Positions 1,666 to 24,591 of a stretch of 32,670 bases of DNA are shown here, in pieces; position 1 is the stretch's first letter, and the number at the start of each line of letters is the position of its first letter. The position numbers and the translations under genes were made by a program. The stretch is from Thermoplasmata archaeon (GTDB lineage: Archaea; Thermoplasmatota; Thermoplasmata; Halarchaeoplasmatales; Halarchaeoplasmataceae), in contig PULU01000074.1 of the NCBI GenBank assembly GCA_003551065.1, positions 1-32,670 of the forward strand, in the 5' to 3' direction. Under the pieces are notes generated by a model, which had not been told where the DNA came from, made no database searches, and saw nothing but the letters and a program-made list of their open reading frames with translations.

Positions 1666-2577
1666 TCATTCTTCGATGCCTTTCTGGATCTCTAAAATCT
1701 CCATCTCAAAAGTCAGAGGTGTATTGTTGACTTCTTCGTTGAAATCGAGGGTTATCTTTTCTTCTGAAACACCTACAACTATGCCGGTTGTATCGGATCC
1801 CTGACCGCTTTCCATCTTTATATCTTGAATATCGGCAAAATCCTCCCGATGTAAGGCTATATGTTCTGCATCTACTAAGCTTGGCTTATCCACCTCGTGC
1901 CAGAGTTCTATAACATCATCGGATGAATCTATCGAAAGTACTTCCGTTGTCCAGTCCCAGGACCCCTCGATATAAGTCTGATAAGTTTCTCCTTCATCTG
2001 GTTGATGCATCATCGTGACTATTTCTCCCTCGATGGAGATAACGGTTTTGTCCCAACTCCAGAATCTATCAGTAACAACCATATTGATATTGGGTTCTTC
2101 CCCATATCTCCTACTGAAAGTATCCATATCTATCTCTTCGTAGACTGGTATCTTTTCATCTCTCTCGATATCTACGATCAGATCTTCACTCCACTCCGGA
2201 TAAGCTTTTTCAGGAGGAACGGTGAAAGTTTTAGTCTCCCCTTCCTGCATACCTATAATATTTTCGTTCCATCCTTCTATAACCCCTTCTCCGACAGTGA
2301 ATTGGAACGGTTCTCCCCGATCTCGCTCGGTGAAAGTTATGATAGTTGGATCAGTTACCTCTCTACTTGAATCAAATATTCTTTCTTCCTCATAGATCCT
2401 ATCATCTTCAAGCCATCCTTTATAATGGACGGTGACTATATCTCCTTCTTCGACAACATTTTCTGGTTCTTCAACTTCTTCGTCCTCAGTGAAATAATAT
2501 CTATTAACAGCAAGAGCTCCACCGATAGAAGCACCAATCAAAACGATCACGATGATGTAGATTGTAGTTCTGTTCAT
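1666..2577 (-). CDS. Membrane-anchored FKBP-type peptidyl-prolyl cis-trans isomerase (SlyD-like, with large insert)
   Basis: This 303-residue protein has an N-terminal membrane anchor (about residues 5-26, IYIIVIVLIGASIGGALAV), so the catalytic part probably faces outside. The FKBP fold begins near residue 44 (GDIVTVHYKGWLEDDRIYEE) and continues through FDSSRE, GEGVIEGWNENIIGMQEGE and the flap region PPEKAYPEWSEDL. The chain then runs for roughly 130 residues through a poorly conserved part. It returns to the expected last strand, GIVVGVSEEKITLDFNEEV, then LTFEMEILEIQKG. In SlyD and archaeal long FKBPs an insert-in-flap chaperone domain sits at this place. Here it is longer than usual and contains the Trp-rich stretch EGSWDWTTEVLSI. 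Likely role: folding of exported proteins. The usual DFNHPLAG motif has become DFNEEVNN, so isomerase activity is not certain. Confidence 0.85.
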   Translation of the reverse strand: MNRTTIYIIVIVLIGASIGGALAVNRYYFTEDEEVEEPENVVEEGDIVTVHYKGWLEDDRIYEEERIFDSSREVTDPTIITFTERDRGEPFQFTVGEGVIEGWNENIIGMQEGETKTFTVPPEKAYPEWSEDLIVDIERDEKIPVYEEIDMDTFSRRYGEEPNINMVVTDRFWSWDKTVISIEGEIVTMMHQPDEGETYQTYIEGSWDWTTEVLSIDSSDDVIELWHEVDKPSLVDAEHIALHREDFADIQDIKMESGQGSDTTGIVVGVSEEKITLDFNEEVNNTPLTFEMEILEIQKGIEE

Positions 2578-2676
2578 GTGTTATCATCTAATAAAAAATG
2601 TGCCCATGTAATAAATGTTGCGGACTCAAACATCGAACATCCTAAGACAAAAAGTCATAGTTACCAATGTTATAAC

Positions 2677-2684
2677 TATAAATA
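2677..2684 (+). promoter_or_regulatory. TATA box of purA
   Basis: The sequence tataaata lies about 30 bp before the purA ATG at 2713, within tataactataaataag. It predicts a very short leader, as is common in archaea. Confidence 0.5.
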
Positions 2685-2685
2685 A

Positions 2686-3993
<1,308 letters not shown>

Positions 3994-3995
3994 TT

Positions 3996-5441
3996 TTAAA
4001 ACTGTTCAGAAACTTTAAACTCCTTTCTCTCTTTTTCCCGCTGTTCACTGAAATATTCTCTGATGTCTTCTCTAACCTGGGTAGGATAGTCCTCGTTTAG
4101 ACAAGCTAAACAAAGTTCATTTTTTTCTCTTCCTATACCCTTTACAAGACCGTCTATCGTTTGATAAGTAAGTGAATCACAGCCAATATCCTCTCTTATC
4201 TCCTCAACCTTTTTATTTGCTGCTTTTAATTCGTGCTTCGTAGGCATATCAACACCGTAATAACAAGGAGCTTTGATCGGTGGACACCCCACAAGGAAAT
4301 GAACCTCTTCGGCTCCAGACTTTTTGACTAATTGAACGAGTTTTTTGGAGGTGGTCCCTCTCACTATCGAGTCATCGACCAATGCCACTTTTTTACCCTT
4401 GAGTTCTTCGATTATAGGATTCAGTTTTGTTCTCACGCCTGTTTCCCTTGATAACTGATCCGGCATGATGAAAGTTCGTCCAACATATCTGTTCCGTAAT
4501 AAACCCTCACGATAGGGGACTCCTAATTCTTCAGCTATGGCCAAAGCATACGTTCTAGCAGTATCTGGTACGGGTATCACAACATCTAGATCGTGATCGT
4601 TTTCCTTCCATTTATTAGCCAATTCCTTCCCCAATCTCAGTCTAGCTTCGTAAACGTTCGTCCTTTCTATTGTTGAATCTGATCTAGCAAAATAGACCCA
4701 CTCGAACATACAGTGTCGGGACATATTAGGTCTCACTTGTCTAGTTTCGATGGTTTTAGTCTCTCTGATCAGAATAGCCTCACCAGCTTTCACGTCTCTT
4801 ACAATGTCGTATCCCAAAATATCTAAAACTATATTTTCAGAGGCTACTGCATAACTCGAACCTTCAAGGGTTACTTTCTTACCGAATATCATAGGTCGTA
4901 TGCCGTGTGGATCACGGAATACCAGAAGTCCAAATCCCTGAATCAAAGCTATTACGGAATAACTTCCATTCAGTCTGTCCATGGTCCTCCCCACAGCTCT
5001 GAACAACGCCTTTTCGTTGATCTTGTCTTCCTTAGCCAACTCTCTAGAGAAAACAGCTAGTATGAGTTCAAGATCACATTGGGACATGAGATTGAATCCT
5101 CCTTCTTCTTCGATCTGCTTGTAGTTGACTATATTACCATTGTGAGCCATCCCTATCTTCAGTGGATAGACCGTTTGGAATGGTTGTGCATCCCTTCCAG
5201 GTTCAGATCCTATCGTAGGATAGCGAACATGCCCGATACCCATGTTTCCTCTCAAATTACTTAGTGTATTTTTATCAAAGACATCTCCTACAAGTCCAGG
5301 TCCTTTTATGATACGGGTATTTCCATCCTCTGCAATATATATCCCCGCACCGTTCTGACCCCTATGTTGGATGGCAAAAAGACCATTGTATAACTCTAAG
5401 GGTGCCTTATCTGTTCCTAATATACCGACGATCCCGCACAT
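3996..5441 (-). CDS. purF: Amidophosphoribosyltransferase
   Basis: This enzyme transfers ammonia from glutamine to PRPP, the first step of purine synthesis. The start MCGIVGILGTD places the nucleophilic Cys at position 2, so no propeptide has to be removed. The track's GTG start four codons earlier would bury it. The glutaminase domain shows QHRGQNGAGIY, GHVRYPT and MAHNGNIVNY. The phosphoribosyltransferase domain contains VIPVPDTART and the PRPP loop VALVDDSIVRGTTSKK. Four cysteines at the usual places (RHCMFEW, PPIKAPCYY and the CLACLNEDYP pair) indicate the Fe-S form as in Bacillus. Length is about 481 residues. It is the last gene of the minus-strand run and converges on purA. Confidence 0.97.
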   Translation of the reverse strand: MCGIVGILGTDKAPLELYNGLFAIQHRGQNGAGIYIAEDGNTRIIKGPGLVGDVFDKNTLSNLRGNMGIGHVRYPTIGSEPGRDAQPFQTVYPLKIGMAHNGNIVNYKQIEEEGGFNLMSQCDLELILAVFSRELAKEDKINEKALFRAVGRTMDRLNGSYSVIALIQGFGLLVFRDPHGIRPMIFGKKVTLEGSSYAVASENIVLDILGYDIVRDVKAGEAILIRETKTIETRQVRPNMSRHCMFEWVYFARSDSTIERTNVYEARLRLGKELANKWKENDHDLDVVIPVPDTARTYALAIAEELGVPYREGLLRNRYVGRTFIMPDQLSRETGVRTKLNPIIEELKGKKVALVDDSIVRGTTSKKLVQLVKKSGAEEVHFLVGCPPIKAPCYYGVDMPTKHELKAANKKVEEIREDIGCDSLTYQTIDGLVKGIGREKNELCLACLNEDYPTQVREDIREYFSEQREKERKEFKVSEQF

Positions 5442-5538
5442 GTGAATTACCACGTTTGTCGTTTTTAATACAATTTAATCAAATATGTAGGGGTGTTTTA
5501 AATGTATCGTATGTAATGTGAAGTCGATCCTACTATCA

Positions 5539-5557
5539 ACTATTATATATAAATAGT
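5539..5557 (-). promoter_or_regulatory. Candidate purF promoter (near-palindromic TATA region)
   Basis: The segment actattatatataaatagt is almost self-complementary and resembles a strong TATA box. If used on the minus strand it leaves a purF leader of about 80 nt. A weaker alternative (gtattaaaaac, minus strand, about 5463-5473) would give a leaderless purF transcript. The choice cannot be made from sequence alone. Confidence 0.4.
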
Positions 5558-5607
5558 AAAATGGACTTTTATTTTATATTGAATACATCGATGGCTAAGA
5601 CTAGTAG

Positions 5608-6177
5608 TTATATTTGAACCTGACAAACCTTTATAAAATTTTCAAAGATCTCAACGCCGTATTCAGTATGATCCACTTCTGGATGGAATTGAAGACCATA
5701 TATTTTCTTATCTTTATGTTTGAAAGCTTGATATTTGCAGGACTCCGATGTTGCAAGGTGTATCAATTTTGGTCCCAATTCTTTTACTTCGTCATTGTGA
5801 GATTCCCATGCAACGAATTCGTTAGGTATGTCGATAAAAAGATCATTCTCTTCCAGAACTTTGATATTTGTTTTCCCATACTCTGGACTTTCACTTGCGC
5901 CAGCTTCACCATCATAATATCTCGCGATGAATTGTGCTCCAACACAGATCCCTAGGATCGGCACATCCAACTTTTCGAGATATTTATCGGTCCTACCAAG
6001 TTTTAGATTTTCATCGGATATACGTGGAGCTCCGCCGGATAATATCAACCCATCGACTTCGATATCCTCCACGGGTGTATCATTCTTGATTATATCTGAA
6101 TCTATATCGAGGTACTTGAGAACCCTCCATTCCCGATGTGTCCATTGACCTCCATTGTCTACTACATCAATTTTCAT
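5608..6177 (-). CDS. guaAA: GMP synthase, glutamine amidotransferase subunit (archaeal stand-alone GuaA subunit A)
   Basis: This 189-residue class I glutamine amidotransferase supplies ammonia to a separate ATP-pyrophosphatase subunit that converts XMP to GMP. It shows the N-terminal pattern IDVVDNGGQWTHREWRVL, the oxyanion strand DGLILSGGAP, the nucleophile elbow LGICVGAQ with Cys78, and the catalytic HPE triad part in LQFHPEVDHTEYG (His165, Glu167). In most bacteria this domain is fused to the synthetase; the stand-alone form is the archaeal arrangement. The synthetase subunit is not in the window. It follows pyrG by 21 bp on the same strand, so the two are probably co-transcribed. Confidence 0.95.
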   Translation of the reverse strand: MKIDVVDNGGQWTHREWRVLKYLDIDSDIIKNDTPVEDIEVDGLILSGGAPRISDENLKLGRTDKYLEKLDVPILGICVGAQFIARYYDGEAGASESPEYGKTNIKVLEENDLFIDIPNEFVAWESHNDEVKELGPKLIHLATSESCKYQAFKHKDKKIYGLQFHPEVDHTEYGVEIFENFIKVCQVQI

Positions 6178-6198
6178 GATCTCAAACCTTATAATATA

Positions 6199-7809
6199 TT
6201 ATTTATTTTTTTGTTCCATGGTAGCTTTGATGAATTCAAGGAACAATGGTGCTGGTTTCATAGGTCTAGATGTGAACTCAGGATGGAACTGGCAGCCGAT
6301 AAAAAAGGGATGGTCTTCCACTTCCAAGATCTCCATCCTTTTTTTGTTAGGTGATTTTCCACTGAATTTGATACCTTTCTCTTCCATTTCATCTTTGTAA
6401 TCCAAATTTACCTCATACCTATGTCTATGTCTTTCTTTGATCTCTGTAGATCCGTATATTTCATGAGCTCTTGTTCCTTCTTCTATCAGGATCTTCTCAG
6501 AACCTAGCCTCATGGTTCCTCCCATCATATCGATACCTCGCTGCATGGGCAGAAGATCGATCACTGGGTGAGGTGTCTTTTCGTTGAACTCTGAACTGTT
6601 AGCTTCTTCTAATCCTAAAACATTTCTACAGAATTCAATAACGGAAACCTGGAATCCCAAACATATAGTTAATATAGGCACTTTGTTTTCTCTAGCAAAG
6701 TTTACTGCATTGATCTTTCCTTCGATACCTCTATTACCAAAACCACCCGGAATCAAAATACCATCCACATCATCTAAAAGTTTCTTAGGTTCATTTTCTT
6801 CGAGTTCTTCAGATTCTATCCATTTGATGTTTATTTCAGTTTTTGCTTCTGCCTGGCAGTGATGGAAAGCTTCAACGTGACTTTTGTATGCGTCTTCAAG
6901 TTCACAATATTTCCCAACTAAGGCTATTTTGACTTTTTCTGTGGGATTCTCATAGTTATCTAGGAATTCTTTCCACTCATGGATATCATGTTCAGGTTCT
7001 CCCAAGTTCAATTTCTTCATAACGTAATCGATGAATCCCTCTTCTTCCAATATAAGTGGTACCTGATATATACTTTCAGCATCCGGAGAACTGATCACTG
7101 CTTCCTTTGGAACATCGCAAAATAATGAAATCTTTCTTTTTGTTGATTCTTCTAATTTCTTCGGACTCCTACCCACGATTATATCCGGTTGGATACCGAT
7201 CTCTCTGAGTGCCTGGACTGAATGCTGGGTAGGTTTAGTTTTTTGTTCACCAACCACATCTAAAACGGGTATCAAAGTTGTATGTATAAAGATGAAATCA
7301 TTACTTTCTTCTCCGACCTCCATATGTAGCTGCCTACTCGCTTCCATAAAAGGCATGCTTTCGATATCGCCGATAGTCCCACCGATTTCGACCAGGACAA
7401 TATCAGCATCGGTTTCATCTGCAACTTTCCAGATCCTTCTGTTGATCTCATCGGTTATATGGGGTATTATCTGAACCGTTTTGCCTAAATATTTTCCAGC
7501 TCTTTCCTTTTCTATAACACTTCTGTACACTTTACCCGTCGTTATATTGTCGTCTCCGCAGAGGTCGATATCCAAGAATCGTTCATAATTTCCAAGATCT
7601 AGATCAGCCTCAGTCCCATCGTCTAAAACAAATACTTCGCCATGCTCGAAAGGATTCATAGTACCTGCATCGCAGTTCAGATATGGATCTATTTTAATAG
7701 CAGTAACAGAAAACCCGTTGGCTTTTAACAATTTTCCGAGAGAAGAAGTAACGACACCTTTTCCTAAACCCGATAAAACACCGCCCGTGACAATTATAAA
7801 TTTCGTCAT
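6199..7809 (-). CDS. pyrG: CTP synthase
   Basis: This 536-residue protein has the usual full CTP synthase length. It makes CTP from UTP, ATP and glutamine. The N-terminal synthetase domain begins [18 protein letters not shown], continues with [19 protein letters not shown] and the [11 protein letters not shown] segment, and includes [13 protein letters not shown]. The C-terminal glutaminase domain shows [13 protein letters not shown], the nucleophile region TICLGFQ (Cys near 382) and [11 protein letters not shown]. It sits between the THEP1 NTPase (38 bp upstream) and guaAA (21 bp downstream), a plausible three-gene transcript for nucleotide metabolism. Confidence 0.98.
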
Positions 7810-7847
7810 ACTCTATTCACGGGAGAAGAGTAATGTAAAGGAAGTGT

Positions 7848-8378
7848 TTAAGTTTTTGGTTTCCTATCGTTTTGAGATAGTATTTTTGTCAGGCTATTTT
7901 CTATGTCGATTTTGGTTTGTTCGAAATCGCCATCTAAATGAACCACGGTACCGTATTTATTGAATTTTGAAACATAATTTCTGTGGAGGACAGCTAATAC
8001 AGGGATATCTGATTCTAAGAGTTCTATAACTGCATATTCAAATTTATCACTGAAGAGTTCCATGGTCCCTATTTCATCTATCACAACTAGATCAGTTTCT
8101 GGGGAGATGTTCTTCAAACATCTATCTGTGAAATCTTCTAGGTCTTTCATATCGACTCGGTATTTACTCAATTTTGGACCTTCATCTTGGTCAACATGAG
8201 CTAGGATACCTTCTTTACCCCTAGCAACATCTACTAATTTAAAACCGACTCTACGATTATTTTCCCTTATATCTGGAGTTCTTATCCCCTCTATCTTCAA
8301 ATCCTTCTCTTCTATGATCTGCTGAACTAAAGTGCTTTTACCAGACCCTGATGCTCCGGTGATAAAAATATTATTCAT
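7848..8378 (-). CDS. THEP1-family nucleoside-triphosphatase (COG1618)
   Basis: This 176-residue P-loop NTPase starts MNNIFITGASGSGKST, with the Walker A lysine at residue 14. The THEP1 signature continues as IRTPDIRENNRRVGFKLVD. The Walker B segment is LVVIDEIGTMELFS near residue 97, and the last family strand is VLAVLHRNYV. THEP1 proteins hydrolyse several NTPs in vitro; their cellular job is not settled. The ATG has GGTG seven bases upstream, and an AT-rich TATA region (about 8409-8426) lies ahead of it. Being first in line with pyrG and guaAA hints at a nucleotide-related role, which is inference. Confidence 0.92.
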   Translation of the reverse strand: MNNIFITGASGSGKSTLVQQIIEEKDLKIEGIRTPDIRENNRRVGFKLVDVARGKEGILAHVDQDEGPKLSKYRVDMKDLEDFTDRCLKNISPETDLVVIDEIGTMELFSDKFEYAVIELLESDIPVLAVLHRNYVSKFNKYGTVVHLDGDFEQTKIDIENSLTKILSQNDRKPKT

Positions 8379-8467: not shown

Positions 8468-8510
8468 TAATTCATTACAGATAGAATAGTTAGAGATATA
8501 GGTGTTTAAA

Positions 8511-10463
8511 ATGACAGAAGAAGAAAGTCATATCGAATCAAGAATGGAAGGTAAGGACATATACTCACCTCCCGAGGAGTTCAAAGAACAGGCGAACGTG
8601 AATGATCCAGAAATATACAAGTACGCTGAAGAGAACTACGAAGAGTTCTGGGCAGACCTTGCTGAAAGACTCGATTGGTATGAAAAGTGGGACGAAGTGT
8701 TGAAGTGGGATCCACCTCATGCTGAATGGTTTGTTAATGGGAAATTAAATGCAGCATATAATTGTGTGGATAGACATGTTGAGAATGGAAAAGGCGATAA
8801 GAAAGCTCTTATCTGGGAAGGAGAACCTATGGATGAAACCAAGGAATACACTTTTTCAGAATTGAAAGATGAGGTTTCAAAATTTGCAAACGGTCTTAAG
8901 GAATTGGGAGTTAAAAAAGGAGATATCGTAACATTTTATCTTCCGATGATACCTGAGCTCGCTATCGGTCTTCTAGCATGTGCTAGGATCGGTGCACCTC
9001 ATAGTGTAGTTTTCGGAGGTTTTTCACCTTCCGCATTGAAAGAGAGGATAAATGATGCCGAATCAAAATTCTTAGTTACTGCTGATGGATATTACAGAAG
9101 AGGCAAAGTAATCAATATGTGGGAGAACGCTGAAGAAGCCTTAGAAGGTACGTCCAACGTGGAAAAAGTGATCGCTGTTGAAAGGATCGGAAGAGACGAT
9201 GTTGAATACGAAGAAGGAAGAGATGTCGTTTACGAAGATTTGGTAAAGGACCAGTCCAAGGAATGTGAACCCGAAAAGATGGACGCCGAAGATATGCTGT
9301 TCCTTATGTACACAAGTGGTACAACTGGCAAACCAAAGGGTGTAGTACATACTACAGGAGGATATTTAACAGGTACATCTGCAACCCATAACTATGTTTT
9401 CGACATCAAAGATGACGACATATACTGGTGTACAGCAGATATAGGCTGGATCACAGGTCACAGCTACATCGTTTATGGTCCATTAGCCAACGGAACAACC
9501 ACATTGATGTACGAAGGAGCACCTGACACACCCACTAAAGACAGATTCTGGCAGATAATAGAAAAATATGATGTAACTAAACTTTACACAGCTCCCACAG
9601 CTATCAGGTTGTTCATGAAATGGGGTAGAGAATATCCTGACAAACACGACTTATCTAGTTTGAAGGTTTTAGGTTCTGTAGGAGAACCTATCAATCCTAA
9701 AGCTTGGAAATGGTACCACGAAGTCATAGGTGGTGGAGAATGTCCCATCGTCGATACTTGGTGGCAGACCGAAACCGGTATGATGTTGATCACACCATTA
9801 CCAGGAATAACCGATCTGAAACCGGGTAGTGCAACACATCCATTCCCAGGTCTCAAAGCTGACATCTATGATGCAGCTGGAAATAGCCTTGAAGCTAACC
9901 AAGGAGGATATTTGGTTATCAAGCGACCGTGGCCATCGATGTTGAGAACACTCTACAAAGAACCAGAGAGATACGTGGAAACATACTGGTCAGAGTATGA
10001 AAACGATATCTATTTCGCAGGAGATGGTGCACGAATAGATGAAGACGGATACTTCTGGGTTGTAGGTAGGATAGATGATGTTTTGAACGTTGCAGGACAC
10101 AGGCTCAGCACCATGGAGATGGAAAGTGCACTGGTTGATCACGAAGCAGTTGCTGAAGCTGCGGTAGTTGGAAAACCGGATGAAGTGAAAGGACAAGTTC
10201 CTATAGCTTACGTGATCTTAGAGTCGGGTCGTGAAGCATCTGATGAACTGGCAAGTGAATTGAGAGCCCACGTCGGAAACATCATCGGTCCAATAGGTAA
10301 ACCCGCAGCAGTTAGATTCACAAGAGACCTACCAAAAACAAGATCTGGAAAGATAATGAGAAGGATTTTAAAGAAACTTGAAAAAGGTGAATCCGCTGGA
10401 GACACGTCCACACTAAGAAATCCAGATATCGTAGAAGAGATCAGAGAGATGGTCGAGGAGTAA
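8511..10463 (+). CDS. acs: Acetyl-CoA synthetase, AMP-forming
   Basis: This enzyme activates acetate to acetyl-CoA through acetyl-AMP. The 650-residue length is typical. The ATP-binding P-loop MYTSGTTGKPKGVVH lies at about 264-278, WWQTETG near 417, the hinge region VVGRIDDVLNVAGHR follows, and the C-terminal lysine motif PKTRSGKIMRR lies near 607-617. That lysine is the one acetylated in bacterial Acs to switch off the adenylation step. I start at ATG 8511, six bases after AGGTG, rather than at the GTG at 8502 that overlaps this site. It is monocistronic as far as I can see. An ADP-forming synthetase lies 10 kb away, so the cell has both acetate activation chemistries. Confidence 0.97.
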   Translation: MTEEESHIESRMEGKDIYSPPEEFKEQANVNDPEIYKYAEENYEEFWADLAERLDWYEKWDEVLKWDPPHAEWFVNGKLNAAYNCVDRHVENGKGDKKALIWEGEPMDETKEYTFSELKDEVSKFANGLKELGVKKGDIVTFYLPMIPELAIGLLACARIGAPHSVVFGGFSPSALKERINDAESKFLVTADGYYRRGKVINMWENAEEALEGTSNVEKVIAVERIGRDDVEYEEGRDVVYEDLVKDQSKECEPEKMDAEDMLFLMYTSGTTGKPKGVVHTTGGYLTGTSATHNYVFDIKDDDIYWCTADIGWITGHSYIVYGPLANGTTTLMYEGAPDTPTKDRFWQIIEKYDVTKLYTAPTAIRLFMKWGREYPDKHDLSSLKVLGSVGEPINPKAWKWYHEVIGGGECPIVDTWWQTETGMMLITPLPGITDLKPGSATHPFPGLKADIYDAAGNSLEANQGGYLVIKRPWPSMLRTLYKEPERYVETYWSEYENDIYFAGDGARIDEDGYFWVVGRIDDVLNVAGHRLSTMEMESALVDHEAVAEAAVVGKPDEVKGQVPIAYVILESGREASDELASELRAHVGNIIGPIGKPAAVRFTRDLPKTRSGKIMRRILKKLEKGESAGDTSTLRNPDIVEEIREMVEE

Positions 10464-15156: not shown

Positions 15157-16473
15157 TCATATCTCTTCTATACGGTCTTCCTCTTCCCTTAGATCTACAA
15201 CTCTTTTAGCTTTTCCGACTGTCCTAGGCAACGTTCCAGGTTCGAGTAGTTTAACTCTAGCCTTTATATTCAAAATAGCCGTGATGTTTTCAGAAGTTCT
15301 CCCTAGTAATTCTTCTTCGTCGTATTCGTCTGAATCGTAGTATTCTCTGTCAACTTCCACTCTAACGAAAAGTTTGTCCAAAACATCTCTGTCAACTATT
15401 ATCTGATAATGCTCACCGATCCCTTCAGTTTCTAATAGAGCTTCTTCGATCTGGCTTGGGAATACGTTCACACCACCAACGATCAACATATCGTCGCTTC
15501 TACCTTCAATGCGCTTTATCTTAGGATGATACCTGCCACATTCACACTCTTCGTATTCGATAGTCGCGATGTCTTTTGTTCTGTACCTTAATAACGGCAT
15601 AGCTTCTCTGGAAAGCATAGTGAAAACCATCTCTCCTTTTTCTCCTTCTGGCAGTACTTCACCGGTATTCGGGTCGATAGTTTCAACATAGAACTCGTCT
15701 CCCCATATGTGGAGTCCATTTTGTTCTGGACATTCCACGGCTACTCCGGGACCATAAAGTTCGGACATGCCATAGACATCCTGTGCATTCAATCCGAAGG
15801 AATCTTGGATACTTGTCCTAGCTTCTTCACTCCACGGTTCCGCACCGAACATTCCAACTCTAAGATTGAAATCCTCTCGAGGGTCAAATCCATGCTTTTG
15901 GGCAGCCTCTGCTAGATAGATTGCATAAGATGGGGTACAAGCAAGAACTGAGGTTTGGAAATCTTTCATCATCTGGATCTGTTTTTTTGTGTTCCCTGTT
16001 GACGTGGGTAGTACTGAACATCCCAATTCTTCAGCACCCTGATGGAAACCTAAACCACCTGTGAACAACCCATATCCGTATGCGTTTTGAACTATATCAG
16101 ATGGTTCAACCCCTGCAGTCGAATAACATCTTGCCATCAGATCGTTCCAAGTGTCCATGTCGTTACGAGTGTATGAAACAACCGTGGGTTTTCCTGTAGT
16201 TCCGCTGGAAGCATGGAATCGAACTACATCATCTTTATTCACTGCCAATATCCCATAGGGATAGTGGTCTCTAAGATCATCTTTTACCGTGAAAGGGACT
16301 TTGTGTACATCGTCTAGACTTTTTATGTCCTTAGGGGTTATGCCTTCATTTTTGAATCTTCTCTTATACATAGGAACGTTATCGTAGGCATACTTTACCA
16401 TCTTGAGCATCTTCTCTTCCTGTACCTTTCTGATCTCGTCCCTCTTCATCAATTGAGCTTTTTTATTGAACAT
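15157..16473 (-). CDS. paaK: Phenylacetate-CoA ligase (AMP-forming, PaaK family)
   Basis: This 438-residue enzyme has the typical PaaK length. It activates aryl acids such as phenylacetate to CoA thioesters. The N-terminal segment KMVKYAYDNVPMYKRRF, the substrate-binding start VPFTVKDDLRDHYPYG, the P-loop FHASSGTTGKPTVVSYT, YGYGLFTGGLGFHQGAE, DVYGMSELYGPGVA and IEGRSDDMLIVGGVNVFPSQ are all family marks. In archaea such ligases often serve aromatic amino-acid fermentation together with ketoacid:ferredoxin oxidoreductases; none is in this window. The ATG is preceded by AAGGTGG at six bases. A flavodoxin gene lies 72 bp upstream on the same strand. The exact aryl acid is not predictable. Confidence 0.93.
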   Translation of the reverse strand: MFNKKAQLMKRDEIRKVQEEKMLKMVKYAYDNVPMYKRRFKNEGITPKDIKSLDDVHKVPFTVKDDLRDHYPYGILAVNKDDVVRFHASSGTTGKPTVVSYTRNDMDTWNDLMARCYSTAGVEPSDIVQNAYGYGLFTGGLGFHQGAEELGCSVLPTSTGNTKKQIQMMKDFQTSVLACTPSYAIYLAEAAQKHGFDPREDFNLRVGMFGAEPWSEEARTSIQDSFGLNAQDVYGMSELYGPGVAVECPEQNGLHIWGDEFYVETIDPNTGEVLPEGEKGEMVFTMLSREAMPLLRYRTKDIATIEYEECECGRYHPKIKRIEGRSDDMLIVGGVNVFPSQIEEALLETEGIGEHYQIIVDRDVLDKLFVRVEVDREYYDSDEYDEEELLGRTSENITAILNIKARVKLLEPGTLPRTVGKAKRVVDLREEEDRIEEI

Positions 16474-16545: not shown

Positions 16546-17025
16546 TCACAATATACGTTCTAAAAAATTAGAGATATCCTCTAGATGTTTTCTCTCCTCG
16601 ACATCTTTATCTCTTAAACTCAAAACTTCTTTTGGTTCTCCTGCTATCTCCTGCATATCGTTAAACGTTTTAGATTCTCCGCCCCCGCCGTGCGTACAAA
16701 AAAATGCAGTTTGAGATATTTCATCTTTATAGTTTTCCAGGTATGTTCTGATAGCCGGTGTCACTTTCCCTGCCCACACAGGCGTACCTACTATCAACAT
16801 ATCAAAATTTTCAGGATGATAAGAAATGTCCTTTATCTCAGTTTTCTTTTTCATCAAGGCATCTTTACCTGCTATGACATATCCCGTATTCCCATCTCGG
16901 TTTTTCTTATCTATTATCTCCTCTGTTTTGACTTCTATATCTTTTTTATTCAATACCTCTTTAATGTCCATAGCCGCTTTCCTTGTTGTTCCTGTCCGTG
17001 AATAGTACGAGATCAATATATTCAT
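16546..17025 (-). CDS. Flavodoxin family protein
   Basis: This 159-residue protein begins ILISYYSRTGTTRKAA, where SRTGTTRK is the FMN-phosphate loop. Further marks are DMLIVGTPVWAGKVTPAI and AFFCTHGGGGESKTFNDM, the loops around the isoalloxazine ring. It is a short-chain flavodoxin of the kind that carries electrons in the cytoplasm or acts as a small FMN protein. GGGTAATC precedes the ATG. Lying between paaK and the lctP-type permease on the same strand, it may serve electron transfer in the same pathway, but this is only positional evidence. Confidence 0.9.
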   Translation of the reverse strand: MNILISYYSRTGTTRKAAMDIKEVLNKKDIEVKTEEIIDKKNRDGNTGYVIAGKDALMKKKTEIKDISYHPENFDMLIVGTPVWAGKVTPAIRTYLENYKDEISQTAFFCTHGGGGESKTFNDMQEIAGEPKEVLSLRDKDVEERKHLEDISNFLERIL

Positions 17026-17088: not shown

Positions 17089-18675
17089 TCAGAATCCAAT
17101 GCTTACAAATATGGCTGTCATGATACTAAGGATCAAAGTTATTATGAACACTATCAGTAGATGTTTTCGCAGTATCTCACTCTCGAGTTTTCTTCCTTTT
17201 CCGATAGTGGCTACTGCGTTATTTATCTTAGACGGTGTTATGGCAGATGCTACTCCTCCAGCTACACCATGACCTGCATAAACAGACATGAATTGATTAT
17301 CAGAAAGACCGATCTGTTCGGTAACCTGACGCTGTATTCCGAATAATAGAACATTACTAGCTGTTTCACTTCCACCAACGATAGCACCGAAAAGACCTAG
17401 ACTAGCCGCTACAAAGATATACCCAGGTCCAAAAACATTACCGAGGAATAAACCAGCGATATAGTTCATATTGGAGTCTATATCTATGACTAATTCTTCT
17501 CCATTCATCGACCCTCCGCTCCATGCCATGATATAAGCTATGGAGAAGAAAAGACTGTATGCGATGAATGGTGCCCATATACTTCTCGACCAAGTTTTCA
17601 ATGCTTTTTTACTCTGTTTTATAGTCGGTTTCAATAAAAAGAATGAAGCGAAAGCTGTCACCCCGATCCAGAAGTAAACTTGGGCAAAAACATTGAAATT
17701 TACGGTTTCATAGGCGATTAACCAGCTGGTAAAACCAGGATCTAAAGTCCTTAAAAATTCATTGATAGCTGGAACACTTGCTATAGAAGCGAGAACTATT
17801 AGTAATAACCAAGGGGACAAGGCCCTTAACAATTTTTTCTTATCTATCGGTTCGTGTTCCAATATGATACCATTTCGCTTTCTATCCCACCGGAAATAAA
17901 GATAAAGTCCTATCATGGAAACTAGGCCAACGATCACCCCTAAAACCATGATCGGAGCCCTTATGATAACCAAAAATATAGACATAAAACCGATTATTAA
18001 ACCAGATAATAATGCAGGTACTAATCCTTTTTTAACAGATTTGATACCCCCGATTATCCATAACATCGCTATCGATAATATGGTGGCTATCACGGGTAAG
18101 AAAAGTGCGATCCTGAATGCGAATTCATAACCGAATTCTAATACAGACATACCCAACTCCCCGGCAAATAGTTCAGCAGGTAAAGTGATTGGTATAGATA
18201 GTATGGCAAAACTAGTACTAGCATTGTAGCCTAAAACCGAAATCGCTACAGCGGATGATGGTCCGAATCCCATAGCTATCAACAATGGAGGAAAAAGAGC
18301 AGGGGTCACTATACCCAAAGATGTAACAAAAGTTCCGAAACCTATCCCTATGAATAGTGCTTGTTCTTCTTTTGTATGGGCCACTCTTTTTATCGCTTTA
18401 GAGATGGTCCCTAGTGCCCCTACCTCCCTCATCAAAAATATCAGGAGCATAGTGAATATAATAGCTATGCTGATACCGAAAGATTCCAGGAAACCGTATA
18501 TTGCAGCTGTAGTAGCTACAAATAGACTAGTGTCAAAAAACACCACTGCAACTGTGAAACAAATGAGCAGCCCTAACACTGCCATCTCTGCTGCATTTCT
18601 TTTAAAGAATATGATCCCTATGAACACCGCAAAGAGCGGAAGAAGCACTAAAAGGAATTGTAATCCCATCATCAT
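17089..18675 (-). CDS. lctP: L-lactate permease family transporter (LctP)
   Basis: This 528-residue polytopic membrane protein has about a dozen hydrophobic helices. The LctP family marks are SLGIVTPALFPPLLIAMGF near the first third, GYNASTSFAILSIPITLP, and the C-terminal block GGSETASNVLLFGIQRQVTE followed by HGVAGGVASAITPSKINNA. Family members import lactate or glycolate with protons. No lactate dehydrogenase is in the window, so the real acid may be another short hydroxy or carboxylic acid. Three ATGs stand in a row at the start and the first is annotated. The gene is divergent from the fused ADP-forming acyl-CoA synthetase and shares a palindromic TATA region with it. This suggests the imported acid is handled by that cluster. 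Confidence 0.88.
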   Translation of the reverse strand: MMMGLQFLLVLLPLFAVFIGIIFFKRNAAEMAVLGLLICFTVAVVFFDTSLFVATTAAIYGFLESFGISIAIIFTMLLIFLMREVGALGTISKAIKRVAHTKEEQALFIGIGFGTFVTSLGIVTPALFPPLLIAMGFGPSSAVAISVLGYNASTSFAILSIPITLPAELFAGELGMSVLEFGYEFAFRIALFLPVIATILSIAMLWIIGGIKSVKKGLVPALLSGLIIGFMSIFLVIIRAPIMVLGVIVGLVSMIGLYLYFRWDRKRNGIILEHEPIDKKKLLRALSPWLLLIVLASIASVPAINEFLRTLDPGFTSWLIAYETVNFNVFAQVYFWIGVTAFASFFLLKPTIKQSKKALKTWSRSIWAPFIAYSLFFSIAYIMAWSGGSMNGEELVIDIDSNMNYIAGLFLGNVFGPGYIFVAASLGLFGAIVGGSETASNVLLFGIQRQVTEQIGLSDNQFMSVYAGHGVAGGVASAITPSKINNAVATIGKGRKLESEILRKHLLIVFIITLILSIMTAIFVSIGF

Positions 18676-18696
18676 TTTATCATTGGTTCGATATGG

Positions 18697-18718
18697 GATG
18701 ATATTTATAAATATTATC
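18697..18718. promoter_or_regulatory. Palindromic bidirectional TATA/operator between lctP and acd
   Basis: A 22-bp dyad with one mismatched pair is centred on ATATTTATAAATAT. It can present a TATA box to both strands. On the minus strand it sits about 30 bp before the lctP start. On the plus strand it predicts a start near 18733 and a leader of roughly 60 nt for acd. Its symmetry would also allow a dimeric regulator to bind. Confidence 0.5.
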
Positions 18719-18793
18719 TACGTTAGATTACACTTCGAGGACTCATGTTTAAATCCGAAAGTCATATTAAGGCCTATGTTTACTGCGATATCG

Positions 18794-20923
18794 ATGGCCG
18801 AAAAAGAAAAAGATCTCATCCCTCTCTTTGAGCCTGATTCGATAGCCATAGTTGGTGCATCCAGTAAAAAAGGGAAGGTCGGGAATATTTTACTTTCGAA
18901 CATCGTCAACTCGGGGTACGATGGGGTTGTATATCCTATAAATCCTAAGGGTGGGGAAATATATGGAAAAGAAGTTTACGGATCCATAGAAGAACTTCCG
19001 GATGGTATAGACCTTGGTATCGTAGTCATACCTGCCAAATACGTCAGAGAGGCTGTCCACAAATTGGGTGAAAAAGGGATAAAACATACTATAGTCATCA
19101 CATCGGGATTTTCAGAGATCGGTAATACCGATGAAGAAAATCTCATAGTTGAAGAGGCTGGAAAACACGGTATGAGGATCCTCGGTCCAAATGTATTCGG
19201 TATATATTCAGCAAAGGCAGAATTGAACGCTACATTTGGGCCCTCAGATGTATCCAAAGGCGAGATAGCCTTGATATCTCAGAGCGGTGCCCTTGGTATA
19301 GCTATGATAGGTAAGACAGCAATGCAATATCTGGGGCTTTCAGCCATCGTAAGCGTGGGAAATAAAGCAGATATCGATGATATGGATCTTATAGATTATT
19401 TCGCAGATGACGATGAAAGTAAAGTCATCATGATCTATATGGAGGGGCTCGAGAACGGACGTGAGTTCATCGACAAGGTGGAAAGTGAGATCCCTCCTGA
19501 AAAAGCCATCATCGTTATAAAAGCCGGTCGTTCAGAGAAGGGGGCGACGGCAGTGGCCTCTCATACTGGTTCGCTGGCGGGATCTGATAGAGTATTCAGT
19601 TCAGCATTCAAACAAGCTGGTATCTTGAGAGCCGATACCATCAATGAGGCTTTTAACTGGTCAAGGGCTTTTTCCAGTACACCTCTACCTGAAAACGATA
19701 AGGTAGTCGTGATAACCAATGGCGGCGGTATCGGAGTCCTGAGTGCAGATGCCGCTGAAAAATATGGTGTAGATCTGTTAGATGACCAGACTTTCCTAAA
19801 AGAGACCTTTGAGGAAACAATACCTCCTTTTGGTTCTACCAAGAATCCTATCGATATAACAGGGCAGGCAGGGAAGGAGGAATACGAGAAGGCATTAAGA
19901 AAAGCCTTCGAGAGCGATGAGATAGGTGCGGTAGTTGGTTTATACTGTGAGACAGGAACGACAGATGATGGGGAGGTTGCAAATGCTGTCAAAGAGATAC
20001 ACGATGATTTTGGTAACGAAAAGACCGCGGTGTACGCTTTCACAGGTGGAGAGGAAGTGAATGATTGTATTCAATGGTTAAGAAAAAATAATATATCCGC
20101 ATATACTGAAACTGATGATGCCATGTCTTCGTTAGGGGCTCTGTATAGAAGAAAGAGATATCTGGACAGGAAAGAAGAGATGGAAGATATAGATGCACCA
20201 GATATGGATATAGAAAGTATCAATGAGATTATCAACAGAGCCGTTAGTCAAGGTAGGGTAAATCTTTTGGAAGACGAGGCGAGAAAGATCTTAGACCTCG
20301 CAGGCATACCCATGGCAGAGGGTCGAGTCGTTAATACTCTTGAAGATGCGGTGAAAGCTGCGGAGGAGATAGGATATCCCGTGGTACTAAAAGTAGTCTC
20401 AGAGGATATCATGCATAAATCGGATGCAGGCGGTTTGGCTCTCGATCTAGAGAATGAAAAAGAAGTGGTGGATGCTTATCAGGCGATCTATTCTAACTGT
20501 AAAAGTAAGTACCCTAATGCACATATTCGAGGGATATCTGTAGCCGAGATGTTAAAGGGCGGTGAAGAAACCATAGTTGGCGGTACTTGGGATAATTCAT
20601 TCGGTCCCATGGTCATGTTCGGTTTAGGAGGGGTTTATGTTGAGATCCTGGAAGATGTAGTTTTCAGAGTGGCTCCCATATCAAAGAGAGAAGCTAGAAG
20701 GATGATAGGAGAGATCAATGCCTTCCCTGTTTTGGTAGGTGCACGGGGACAATCTAGAAAAGATCTAGATGCCTTGGCAGATATTATATACCGTATGTCC
20801 TTTTTGATGGATGAAGTGGACGACATATCCGAAATAGATTTAAATCCTATCAAAGCATTCGACCAAGGTAAGGGAGCAAAATCCGTTGATGTTGCTATTT
20901 CAATAAAAAGAAAGGTGATATAA
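18794..20923 (+). CDS. acd: ADP-forming acetate/acyl-CoA synthetase, fused alpha-beta (NDP-forming, COG1042)
   Basis: The protein is about 709 residues, the normal length for the fused form. It interconverts acyl-CoA + ADP + Pi with acid + ATP, the main substrate-level ATP step in many fermenting archaea. Domains in order: CoA-binding Rossmann domain (about 9-130, PDSIAIVGASSKKGKVGN), two succinyl-CoA-ligase-like domains carrying the phospho-His motif ASHTGSLAGSDRV (His257), and a C-terminal ATP-grasp domain (about 476-709) with the second His in IMHKSDAGG (His541). The ORF track extends it to 18350 antisense to lctP; that part is spurious. ATG 18776 is a possible alternative start. The DRTGG gene follows after 2 bp, so they form an operon. 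Substrate range (acetate, aryl acids, others) is not predictable. Confidence 0.94.
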   Translation: MAEKEKDLIPLFEPDSIAIVGASSKKGKVGNILLSNIVNSGYDGVVYPINPKGGEIYGKEVYGSIEELPDGIDLGIVVIPAKYVREAVHKLGEKGIKHTIVITSGFSEIGNTDEENLIVEEAGKHGMRILGPNVFGIYSAKAELNATFGPSDVSKGEIALISQSGALGIAMIGKTAMQYLGLSAIVSVGNKADIDDMDLIDYFADDDESKVIMIYMEGLENGREFIDKVESEIPPEKAIIVIKAGRSEKGATAVASHTGSLAGSDRVFSSAFKQAGILRADTINEAFNWSRAFSSTPLPENDKVVVITNGGGIGVLSADAAEKYGVDLLDDQTFLKETFEETIPPFGSTKNPIDITGQAGKEEYEKALRKAFESDEIGAVVGLYCETGTTDDGEVANAVKEIHDDFGNEKTAVYAFTGGEEVNDCIQWLRKNNISAYTETDDAMSSLGALYRRKRYLDRKEEMEDIDAPDMDIESINEIINRAVSQGRVNLLEDEARKILDLAGIPMAEGRVVNTLEDAVKAAEEIGYPVVLKVVSEDIMHKSDAGGLALDLENEKEVVDAYQAIYSNCKSKYPNAHIRGISVAEMLKGGEETIVGGTWDNSFGPMVMFGLGGVYVEILEDVVFRVAPISKREARRMIGEINAFPVLVGARGQSRKDLDALADIIYRMSFLMDEVDDISEIDLNPIKAFDQGKGAKSVDVAISIKRKVI

Positions 20924-20925
20924 AA

Positions 20926-21957
20926 ATGAAGAACCTTATAATCGCTTCAACAAGACCTGATGCAGGTAAGACAACAGTTGGTATAGCTATAGCTATGATG
21001 AAGAAGGACAGGTTCAATTATCTGAAACCCTTCGGAGACAGACCGATTTATAAGAAAAAAAGATTGATCGACTATGATGCAAAACTGTTCAAGAACATAT
21101 TGAACCTAAAAGAGGATTACGAGAAGTTCTGCATCGGTTTCGACCATTCAAAGATAAAATACGCCTACGATGAAAAAACTATCAAGGAAAAGATAAGAGA
21201 AAGGATCGAAGAGATGAGAGAGACTAGAGATAGTGTCATCATAGAAACGGGAAGTGAGTGGACTGTTGGCTCATCGATACATCTAGACCCGATCTCCTTA
21301 AACCAGTACATCGATTCTGACATCGTTTTCGTAGCCACTGGTGACCGTACTAGTATGATCGACGACATACATACGGTATCGAAATATTTTGATGCCCAGG
21401 ATATCTCTATCAAAGGAGTTGTACTAAATCAAGTAGAATCCGTAGAGGATATACAAAATTTTGCAGTGGATGAAATCGAAGGTCTAGGTATAGATGTTAT
21501 CGGTATAATTCCAGAGATCGACGAGCTTTCTTTGACTAGAGTCAGTTTCATCAACGATATGCTTTTTGGTAAGATCGTTGCCGGAGAGGCTGGATTGAAC
21601 AATCTTGTAGAGAATGTTTTTGTCGGCGCTATGAGTGCAGAGAAGATCGTTAGAAACCCTCATTACCAAAAAAGGAGAAAATTGATAGTAACTGGTGGAG
21701 ATCGCTCTGACGTAGTTCTGGCTTCCTTAGACGAAAAAACGTCAGCTGTGGTCCTGACGAACGATATAATCCCTCCGAGTAATATAATCTCTAGAGCGGA
21801 TAGAGCTGGGATACCGTTGATATCGGTTCCATTAGATACTTTTGAGGCGGCTAGAAGGATCGAACGTATGGATAGGATAACAACTATAGAAGATGATTTC
21901 AAGATAGAAAGGATCAAAGAAGATATCGCACCGAAGATCGATATCCGTTTTGATTGA
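20926..21957 (+). CDS. BioD-like P-loop / DRTGG domain protein (phosphotransacetylase N-terminal-like, COG0857)
   Basis: This 343-residue protein starts MKNLIIASTRPDAGKTT, a deviant Walker A as in dethiobiotin synthetase-like NTPases. The first 200 residues keep that fold (IIETGSEWTVG, VVLNQVES). A C-terminal DRTGG domain follows, with VTGGDRSDVVLASL near 247-260 and then AGIPLISVPLDTFEAARRIE. In bacterial Pta this pair precedes the phosphotransacetylase catalytic domain; here the catalytic domain is absent. The ATG has GGTGAT eight bases upstream, located inside the last codons of acd, so translation is coupled. Stand-alone forms are thought to be regulatory; nucleotide sensing for the neighbouring CoA ligase is my inference. 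Confidence 0.85.
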   Translation: MKNLIIASTRPDAGKTTVGIAIAMMKKDRFNYLKPFGDRPIYKKKRLIDYDAKLFKNILNLKEDYEKFCIGFDHSKIKYAYDEKTIKEKIRERIEEMRETRDSVIIETGSEWTVGSSIHLDPISLNQYIDSDIVFVATGDRTSMIDDIHTVSKYFDAQDISIKGVVLNQVESVEDIQNFAVDEIEGLGIDVIGIIPEIDELSLTRVSFINDMLFGKIVAGEAGLNNLVENVFVGAMSAEKIVRNPHYQKRRKLIVTGGDRSDVVLASLDEKTSAVVLTNDIIPPSNIISRADRAGIPLISVPLDTFEAARRIERMDRITTIEDDFKIERIKEDIAPKIDIRFD

Positions 21958-22009
21958 GACGAGAAAGAATTAAGTAGAGTTCAGCCCTAATAATTTTTGG
22001 GTAGATTAT

Positions 22010-23848
22010 ATGTCTCATGATATAGATTATGTGGAAGCCGATGATGCCTTAAGCAAGATAGGTAGAGGGGATAGGGTCTTTGTTGGATCTGGAGCCTCAG
22101 AACCACAATATCTGGTCAAAAAATTGATGGATCTTGCATCGGGTTTTTATGATACTGAGATATTTCATATACAAACATTGGGTGTCGCTGCTTACACTGA
22201 GGAGAAATTCGAGGACAGTTTTAGGCACAACGCTTTTTTTGTAGATGATAATACTAGGGAGGCAGTTGCCGAGGGAAGAGCGGATTACACACCTATTTTC
22301 ATGAGGGATATACCGAAACTTTTCAAAACCGGAAGGGTTCCACTAGATGCTTCATTGGTCCAGGTGTCTCCCCCTGACAAGCACGGATGGATGAGCCTTG
22401 GGATCGCGGTGGATATCATTAAATCCGCGGTGGAGAACTCGAAGATGGTGATCGCCCAGGTTAATCCAAAGATGCCAAGGGTCCACGGGGATTGTTTTAT
22501 CCATGTAGATGATGTTGATCATCTGGTCCATCATGAAGAAGATCTTTTAGAATTCGACCCAGTTGTTTCAGGAGACACAGCAAAAGAAATAGCAGGGAAC
22601 GTCAGCAGACTCATCGAGGATGGTGCCACTATCCAGATTGGGTACGGTGCTATCCCTAATGCGATATTGGAACATCTTGATGTAAAAGAAGATCTCGGAG
22701 TACATACCGAGATGTTGTCTGAGGAATTGGCTAATCTCATGGAAAGGGGTATAGTGACCAATCAAAAGAAAACCATCCATAAAGGTAAAAGCATAGCATC
22801 TTTCCTGATGGGGACTAAGAAACTCTATGATTTCGTTGATGATAATCCAGGTATAGAACTGAGACCCACGGACTATACAAATGATCCCTTCGTTATCGCG
22901 AAAAATCACAAGATGACAGCAGTCAATACCGCTTTACAGGTCGATCTTACCGGCCAGGTTTGTGCTGATTCATTAGGTTACAGTTTTTACAGTGGGATAG
23001 GAGGTCATGCTGATTTCATGAGGGGTGCAGGTTATGCAGACGATGGAAAATCTATCATAGCTCTTTCTTCAACAGCACAGAAGGGGAAGGTATCCAGGAT
23101 TGTATCTTCTCTTAATGAAGGAGCCGGCGTGGTCACTACTAGAGGGGATGTAGAATACGTGGTAACCGAGTACGGTGTAGCATATCTTAAAGGTAAAAAT
23201 ATCAGACAGAGAGCAATGGAATTGATAAATATTGCACATCCCAAGTTCAGGGAGGAGTTATTGAAGGAAGCGAAAGAACACCATCTTGTTTATCAAGATC
23301 AATTGCTCGTTCTTGGAGAGGGGGGACGCTACCCAGAGGAACTAGAAACGATCAAAACGATCAACGATAAAGAATACGTCTTTAGACCTATGAAGCCTAC
23401 GGACGACGAGCTTCTCAAAGATCTATTCTACTCTCTCTCAGATGAGAGTCTATATAAAAGATTCATGAGTGCTAGGAAGGATATGCCTCACGATCGAAGG
23501 CAGGATTTTGTCCAGATAAATTATAACAAAGAGATGGCCATAGTTGTCATCGATCAAGAGATCGAAGGACCCGACAGGATGGTAGGCGAGGCGGATTACC
23601 GTATCAAGGAAGGACAGAACGTTGCAGAGATATCGGTGATGGTGAGAGATGAATACCAGGGCATGGGGATAGGTACGGCTCTTGTGGAGTACTTGACCAT
23701 GATAGCAAAAAACCAGGGTCTTTATGGATTCACAGCAGAGGTTTTGGCAGACAACAAGAAGATGCTGAGGGTGTTCGAAAAGATGGGTTATGATATCGAA
23801 AAGAAGAGAAAATATGGAGAGTACGAGTTAAGGATGAGATTCACATGA
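22010..23848 (+). CDS. Acetyl-CoA hydrolase/CoA-transferase fused to C-terminal GNAT acetyltransferase domain
   Basis: This 612-residue two-part protein has residues 1 to about 450 as a family I-type CoA transferase (acetyl-CoA hydrolase / 4-hydroxybutyrate CoA-transferase group). It shows VFVGSGASEPQYLV, ASLVQVSPPDKHGWMSLG, IQIGYGAIPNAIL, the catalytic glutamate in VHTEMLSEE (Glu234) and GIGGHADFMRGA. Residues about 457-612 are a GNAT domain with the acetyl-CoA loop RDEYQGMGIGTALVEYL near 547-563. Its start, RPMKPTDDELLKDLFYSLS, then LYKRFMSA and INYNKEMAIVV, resembles the Pat/YfiQ lysine acetyltransferases. Similar fusions exist in bacteria. It moves CoA between acids. The GNAT part may acetylate proteins or act as an acetyl-CoA sensor. 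Its stop overlaps the next start by four bases. Confidence 0.93.
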   Translation: MSHDIDYVEADDALSKIGRGDRVFVGSGASEPQYLVKKLMDLASGFYDTEIFHIQTLGVAAYTEEKFEDSFRHNAFFVDDNTREAVAEGRADYTPIFMRDIPKLFKTGRVPLDASLVQVSPPDKHGWMSLGIAVDIIKSAVENSKMVIAQVNPKMPRVHGDCFIHVDDVDHLVHHEEDLLEFDPVVSGDTAKEIAGNVSRLIEDGATIQIGYGAIPNAILEHLDVKEDLGVHTEMLSEELANLMERGIVTNQKKTIHKGKSIASFLMGTKKLYDFVDDNPGIELRPTDYTNDPFVIAKNHKMTAVNTALQVDLTGQVCADSLGYSFYSGIGGHADFMRGAGYADDGKSIIALSSTAQKGKVSRIVSSLNEGAGVVTTRGDVEYVVTEYGVAYLKGKNIRQRAMELINIAHPKFREELLKEAKEHHLVYQDQLLVLGEGGRYPEELETIKTINDKEYVFRPMKPTDDELLKDLFYSLSDESLYKRFMSARKDMPHDRRQDFVQINYNKEMAIVVIDQEIEGPDRMVGEADYRIKEGQNVAEISVMVRDEYQGMGIGTALVEYLTMIAKNQGLYGFTAEVLADNKKMLRVFEKMGYDIEKKRKYGEYELRMRFT

Positions 23849-24591
23849 ATAGAGCTACCGATTCGATGGAAAAAGAACCAGTATGGGATATAGATCATGA
23901 TAGTGTTGAAGAAGTTATTAAAAAAGTGAAGAAGGAAGGCCGAAACACACTTTTAGAAAACGAGGCTCGAAAAGTGCTCGATGCTGCTGGAATCCATATG
24001 GCAGAGGGAAAAGTCGTTCATGATATACATAGTTGTGTCGAAGCAGCTGAAAGGATAGGATATCCCGTCGTTCTAAAAGTAGTATCTGAAGATATAATCC
24101 ACAAGATGGATGTTGGAGGCGTGGAGACAGGTATCCAAAATGAGAAAGAGCTTTTAGATGCCTATGAATCGATATGTTCCCAGGTAAAAAATAAAAAACC
24201 TAGAGCGAAGATCCGGGGGATTTCAATTTCTGAACACATAGAAGGTGGAGAAGAGGTCGTTATCGGAGGTATGATCGATCCATCCTTCGGTCCAGTCGTC
24301 ATGTTCGGACTCGGCGGGATCTATATCGAAGTTATAAAAGACGTAGTTTTCCGTATAGCCCCTATCGATGCTCAAGAAGCATGTGACATGGTGAGAGAGA
24401 TAAAGTCCTTTTCGATACTGATCGGTGAAAGGGGGAAGGGTAAAAAAGATCTTAGAGCACTAGCTGAGATGATCTCAAGATTGGGCGATCTGATGTATTT
24501 CGTAGATGATATCCAGGATATAGACCTGAATCCTGTAGCCTCTTTAGAAAAGGGTGCAGTTGCCTTAGATGTAGCTATCAACATAAAATAA
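23845..24591 (+). CDS. Stand-alone ADP-forming acyl-CoA synthetase beta subunit (ATP-grasp)
   Basis: This 248-residue protein is equivalent to the last third of the fused Acd upstream, about 60% identical by eye over 195 residues. It shows the ATP-grasp pattern GYPVVLKVVSEDIIHKMDVGG, with the phosphoryl-accepting His at 86. FGPVVMFGLGGIYIEVIKDV, ALAEMISRLGDL and IDLNPV follow. The usual HKSD is HKMD here. No alpha subunit gene adjoins it, so it must pair with one elsewhere, borrow the alpha part of the fused protein, or act alone. Translation is coupled to the CoA-transferase/GNAT gene by the ATGA overlap, so the two products are expected in similar amounts. The first methionine is taken; the Met at residue 8 is an alternative. 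Confidence 0.9.
   Translation: MNRATDSMEKEPVWDIDHDSVEEVIKKVKKEGRNTLLENEARKVLDAAGIHMAEGKVVHDIHSCVEAAERIGYPVVLKVVSEDIIHKMDVGGVETGIQNEKELLDAYESICSQVKNKKPRAKIRGISISEHIEGGEEVVIGGMIDPSFGPVVMFGLGGIYIEVIKDVVFRIAPIDAQEACDMVREIKSFSILIGERGKGKKDLRALAEMISRLGDLMYFVDDIQDIDLNPVASLEKGAVALDVAINIK

Follow-up and report, generated by a model that had tools for sequence, protein, structure and literature searches.

Introduction

Among the closest described systems are the protein acetyltransferases Pat/PatZ (type I) and PatA (type II), which inactivate the AMP-forming acetyl-CoA synthetase, Acs. The locus described here has in common with them a GNAT domain with its catalytic glutamate, the occurrence of Acs and a sirtuin in most genomes of the order, and an Acs gene in the neighbourhood in several lineages; it differs in that the GNAT domain is joined to an apparently active CoA-transferase, not to a dead NDP-forming synthetase domain, and in that a neighbouring gene encodes a live AcdAB, the fused ADP-forming acyl-CoA synthetase. 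In passages of two classification papers, prokaryotic lysine acetyltransferases of types I to V are described as fusions to inactive NDP-forming synthetase, cAMP, ACT or NADP domains, and a CoA-transferase fusion is not named (PMC6456759, PMC8556138). A search of openly accessible literature for a CoA-transferase-GNAT acetyltransferase found none. The parts of such a fused acetyltransferase switch are known, and it appears that their combination has not previously been described.

Two operons offer further points of comparison. In acuABC-acsA of Bacillus subtilis a GNAT likewise controls Acs and has a regulatory nucleotide-binding partner alongside it (AcuB, with a CBS domain and Ap4A; PMC13039410), but AcuA is a protein on its own, the operon also encodes the deacetylase AcuC, and there is no Acd. 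The luo operon of Desulfovibrio (DVU3025-3033) resembles our locus in its lactate permease, its stand-alone AAA+DRTGG protein (DVU3031), which is important for growth on L-lactate (PMC10102598), and the putative ADP-forming Acd that replaces Pta-Ack in six species (PMC4481167). It differs in that no CoA-transferase-GNAT is named there, and its lactate dehydrogenases and PFOR are absent from the locus described here.

That locus lies in a 32,670-nt stretch of DNA, referred to below as the window, from a halophilic Thermoplasmatota archaeon whose genome is 64% complete. Among named organisms, Ca. Saliniplasma halalkaliphilum is its nearest relative, with 90% identity over the fusion protein. The order is known from soda-lake and saline-lake MAGs, and its members are said to break down organic acids and carbohydrates (PMC11332174).

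Layout of the locus

The features of the locus are as follows, with the evidence for each in brackets.

15157-16473, minus strand: PaaK-type CoA ligase, a conserved neighbour upstream of acdAB (Pfam, NCBIfam, locus comparison)
16546-17025, minus strand: flavodoxin-like protein, a frequent conserved neighbour (Pfam, locus comparison)
17089-18675, minus strand: LctP-family permease (PF02652), divergent, accessory (Pfam, 4e-33)
18701-18714, no strand assigned: perfect 14-bp palindrome ATATTTATAAATAT, which holds the permease TATA box, its centre ~32 nt from the permease ATG (sequence comparison)
18755-18771, plus strand: predicted promoter of acdAB, BRE and TATA-like, CCGAAAGTCATATTAAG, ~27 nt before the ATG at 18794 (comparison of loci)
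18794-20923, plus strand: AcdAB, fused alpha-beta ADP-forming acyl-CoA synthetase (Pfam, NCBIfam, structure-database matches)
20926-21957, plus strand: stand-alone AAA_26+DRTGG protein, 2 bp after AcdAB (Pfam, NCBIfam)
21970-21976, plus strand: promoter-like TTAAGTA in a 52-bp gap, 37 nt before the fusion gene (by eye)
22010-23848, plus strand: fusion of a CoA-transferase and a Pat-type GNAT, hereafter the fusion (Pfam, structure matches, alignment, model)
23845-24591, plus strand: AcdB2, stand-alone beta (ATP-grasp) subunit, in 4-bp ATGA overlap with the fusion gene (Pfam, tree)

A preliminary description had named five genes here, from the permease to AcdB2, and all of them, with their coordinates and gaps, are real: a check of the open reading frames bore them out, and each scores above the Pfam gathering cut-off (in order, LctP; CoA_binding/Succ_CoA_lig/Ligase_CoA_2/ATP-grasp_5; AAA_26+DRTGG; AcetylCoA_hydro(+C)+GNAT; ATP-grasp_5). 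The tight coupling it ascribed to them holds at two junctions, the 2-bp gap between acdAB and the DRTGG gene and the overlap between the fusion gene and acdB2, but not elsewhere, as the 52 bp before the CoA-transferase gene illustrate. Nor does its shared palindromic promoter fit the comparison of loci. Such a palindrome turns up in just 0.8% of shuffled versions of the 118-bp gap, yet relatives do not preserve its symmetry, and acdAB has a BRE and TATA element of its own, whose position is conserved across the 13 loci compared (the window among them); the acdAB transcript would likely be leaderless. The TTAAGTA element recurs, by eye, in relatives where the CoA-transferase gene stands alone. 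Because acdAB has its own BRE and TATA element and the fusion gene its own promoter-like sequence, the plus-strand genes probably form two transcription units, acdAB-DRTGG and fusion-acdB2.

AcdAB carries the CoA-binding, Succ-CoA ligase, ligase-CoA and ATP-grasp domains in a single chain, each above its Pfam gathering cut-off. The alpha His 257 (ASHTG) and beta His 541 (HKSD), which we take to be catalytic as in Acd, are intact. Domains and catalytic histidines are shared with the known enzymes (8wzu, a 4-hydroxybutyrate-CoA ligase, which AcdAB matches full-length at 510 bits; 4xyl; 1wr2), but AcdAB falls under every NCBIfam equivalog cut-off, including those for 4-hydroxybutyrate (597 of 1300 bits) and acetate (502 of 567), and in the window's family, unlike in known Acd, a DRTGG gene follows it wherever the contig allows. 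The DRTGG protein, whose P-loop lysine (GK) is invariant and whose GGDR motif is nearly invariant, resembles the N-terminal regulatory part of class II Pta, the profile being matched only at 2-364 of 708. Assignment as a class II phosphotransacetylase was rejected: the PTA_PTB catalytic domain is absent and only the N-terminal half is matched.

Conservation of the core genes

Loci, given below by L numbers, were gathered by a search with the CoA-transferase-GNAT protein alone, so that no selection was made on its neighbours. Beyond the window's family the fusion is encoded at 64 loci. In 42 of these AcdAB is no more than 300 bp away, always on the same strand, and in 27 a DRTGG gene makes up the full trio, several others being cut by contig ends. 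The trio was found in Deltaproteobacteria-type lineages, Balneolales, Anaerolineales, a spirochaete, Eisenbacteria, Myxococcota and other Thermoplasmata families. Gene order is fusion-AcdAB-DRTGG in most bacteria and the other Thermoplasmata, AcdAB-fusion in Planctomycetes and AcdAB-DRTGG-fusion in the window's family. As the collection scan picks up close relatives only, the fusion is probably more widespread than these loci show.

The conserved core is AcdAB, the stand-alone AAA_26+DRTGG protein and the CoA-transferase-GNAT; the permease and the second AcdB are additions made within the family. The conserved acyl-CoA/acid module of the preliminary description, with an ATP-forming Acd, a CoA-transferase and regulatory parts, is therefore supported by gene co-occurrence, the check it had proposed, and very strongly so for these three genes, even across domains of life; its unit of five shrinks to three, LctP being present in only four loci of the family and AcdB2 in three of its six genera.

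The association is not universal. In two genera of the window's family the fusion lies apart from AcdAB-DRTGG in at least some genomes, and in one Thermoplasmata family (L093-L102, L105) it has neither Acd nor Acs nearby. Downstream of the fusion in L093, L095-L102 and L105 are genes for a xylose-isomerase-like TIM barrel and an NFACT (Rqc2-like) protein. In another two loci of one Thermoplasmata family, genes for citrate lyase alpha and citrate synthase lie directly upstream of fusion-AcdAB-DRTGG (L091:588-3222, L092:6491-9107), and in L009 a separate GNAT protein of 374 aa (2184-3305) divergently adjoins the fusion gene.

The CoA-transferase-GNAT fusion and its link to Acs

The first ~427 residues of the fusion are a CoA-transferase of the 4-hydroxybutyrate/butyryl type, with Glu234, presumably the catalytic residue as elsewhere in the family, kept in 63 of 65 homologues. 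A structure model built from 34 homologues (mean pLDDT 79) matches 2oas best, with a TMt of 0.92 and 44% identity. Fold and catalytic glutamate are thus held in common with the 4-hydroxybutyrate/butyryl-CoA:acetate CoA-transferases (2oas, 3gk7), from which the fusion differs in its added C-terminal GNAT and in its score for the butyryl-CoA:acetate equivalog (NCBIfam TIGR03948), 276 bits against a cut-off of 675. Among plasmid records no match covers 80% of the fusion; those listed reach the CoA-transferase half only and end at residue 413-414.

The GNAT domain occupies residues ~441-612, and among solved structures it comes closest to E. coli PatZ, S. lividans PatA and mycobacterial Pat; the best Foldseek match of the model's GNAT is 4u5y, the GNAT of S. 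lividans Pat (PatA) solved with the C-terminal domain of Acs. Glu540, kept in 52 of 56 homologues, aligns with residue 809 of the PatZ chain, which we take to be the catalytic glutamate. The domain is closest to protein acetyltransferases, not small-molecule ones, and is of Pat type in that its nearest relatives are Pat and its catalytic glutamate is retained, while the NDP-forming synthetase of the type I/II architecture is missing. No Acd-GNAT fusion of Pat type I/II was seen among the AcdAB matches.

A candidate target is encoded outside the operon, ~11.5 kb from the fusion gene:

8502-10463, plus strand: AcsA, AMP-forming acetyl-CoA synthetase, the proposed acetylation target (TIGR02188, 967 bits, above the cut-off of 725)

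It carries LPKTRSGKIMRR, with the PKTRSGK site that we take to be the lysine context acetylated by Pat. Elsewhere, 11 of the 64 loci have an Acs gene no more than 5 kb from the fusion. These loci represent five lineages (Anaerolineales, Planctomycetes, L038, L103 and the family of L085, L106 and L107), and in L103 Acs is directly upstream, at 146 bp on the same strand. About 0.5-1.2 such cases would be expected by chance, and with each lineage counted once the probability of at least five is 0.0002-0.008; this estimate takes in 806 kb of flanks and assumes two or three Acs copies per genome of 2-3 Mb. Of 16 genomes of the order, 15 gave an Acs-like match and 12 a sirtuin, while acetate kinase was found in none of the 16, control genomes having been matched in the acetate kinase and sirtuin searches. 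The Pat matches and the Acs neighbourhood suggest that the GNAT half, an acetyl-CoA sensor in the preliminary description, is more plausibly a lysine acetyltransferase of Pat type with Acs as its substrate.

A possible acetylation switch

We propose, with a probability of roughly one half, that the core genes make up a conserved module of acetate/acyl-CoA energy metabolism that carries an acetylation switch of its own, Acd yielding ATP and acid while the fusion would both exchange CoA and acetylate Acs. AcdAB would run in the direction acyl-CoA + ADP + Pi to acid + CoA + ATP, as the ATP-yielding, acid-forming enzyme of an order without acetate kinase. The AAA_26+DRTGG protein may be a nucleotide- or metabolite-responsive partner that tunes Acd, as the N-terminal domain of class II Pta does. 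Its intact residues suggest that the CoA-transferase half moves CoA between acetyl-CoA and another acid via Glu234. By analogy with Pat/CobB, the GNAT half would acetylate the active-site lysine of Acs (PKTRSGK) at high acetyl-CoA, and a sirtuin would reverse this. With Acs silenced, acetate would not be re-activated at the cost of ATP, so that Acd and Acs would not run an ATP-wasting futile cycle.

Some of the neighbourhoods would sit as well with a plain metabolic operon, in which AcdAB and the CoA-transferase deal with several acids derived from amino acids (branched, aryl or hydroxy) and the GNAT half acetylates a small molecule or serves only to stabilise or allosterically tune the transferase. 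The PaaK-type ligase and flavodoxin as conserved neighbours, the citrate lyase alpha and citrate synthase genes that precede the trio in L091 and L092, and the fusions of L093-L102 with no Acs nearby all point that way. Such an operon does not account for the affinity of the GNAT half with protein acetyltransferases or for the repeated presence of Acs near the fusion, and five related transferases that are not fused (L065-L069) have neither Acd nor Acs nearby; we consider it possible but rather unlikely.

It is tempting to speculate further that the fusion represents an undescribed class of protein acetyltransferase, spread through Thermoplasmatota and many bacterial phyla. Its active CoA-transferase would read the balance of acyl-CoA and acetate and its GNAT half would switch Acs off, one protein thereby setting Acd, Acs and transferase. 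This suggestion is tentative. Were it true, the control of acetate metabolism by acetylation, described chiefly in cultured bacteria that have Pat or AcuA, would exist in another architecture, spanning many uncultured phyla and archaea and built into the very gene set that makes ATP from acyl-CoA, and stand-alone AAA-DRTGG proteins would gain a concrete context and a testable role.

The second beta subunit

AcdB2 is found in three of the six genera of the window's family. Its copies group in a single clade (support 100/96), whose neighbours in the tree are the beta halves of AcdAB from the same family (100/99), which indicates a duplication of the beta half within the lineage. In Pyrococcus and Thermococcus the alpha and beta subunits of Acd are split and encoded apart. 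All seven relatives with AcdB2 also encode a stand-alone alpha subunit of a single type, which shares 34-41% identity with the alpha half of AcdAB and has its alpha His intact (in a genome of the window's genus it lies at G015:C37:2357-3706); at the threshold used, none of the eight without AcdB2 does so (Fisher 1.6e-4), although this pattern follows genera, three with and three without, and does not amount to fifteen independent cases. AcdB2 therefore probably pairs with a stand-alone alpha subunit encoded elsewhere. None was found in the window's own genome, a third of which is missing, and this, together with the restriction of AcdB2 to one clade on a branch longer than those of the AcdAB copies, would fit a spare or decaying copy that lacks a dedicated partner or swaps into AcdAB. 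Such a fate seems unlikely given the complete co-occurrence with the alpha subunit in relatives and the intact beta His and ATP-grasp motifs of all copies, which uniformly read HKMD where AcdAB has HKSD. L077 (G012:C92) has a second copy of the neighbourhood, in which both subunits of a split Acd, alpha followed by beta, adjoin a PaaK-type gene.

Permease and other neighbours

The permease matches the family domain PF02652 (115 bits, cut-off 27) but scores only 102 bits against the curated LctP transporter model TIGR00795, whose cut-off is 341. In the preliminary description LctP was to import an acid, the CoA-transferase to activate it with acetyl-CoA and Acd to recover ATP from acetyl-CoA, with DRTGG and GNAT as sensors only. 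The window, L004 and L013 do have LctP divergently beside AcdAB, and L081 has it close by; it is, however, missing or replaced in most loci of the family, was not found beside the trio outside it, and has a promoter separate from that of acdAB, all of which makes the scheme improbable and led us to reject LctP as a core part. In L011 (5563-6729), L015 (4884-6011), L078 (6683-7816) and L079 (5907-7091) its place by acdAB is taken by a conserved, unrelated multi-helix membrane protein with no Pfam match, for which the L011 structure model is poor (pLDDT 44). More regular neighbours of acdAB than LctP are the PaaK-type ligase and, often, the flavodoxin. A lactate link through FAD-oxidase_C proteins (lactate/glycolate oxidase type) was also considered, but with these in only 6 of the 16 genomes of the order it is not firm.

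Just upstream of acdAB in genus g3 is a gene for a HisKA_7TM and DUF835 protein, possibly a sensor (L081:2897-4195, L080:3374-4603). Elsewhere in the window, at 2704-8378, lies a nucleotide-synthesis cluster, named by eye, of adenylosuccinate synthase, PurF-like and GuaA-like amidotransferases and CTP synthase.
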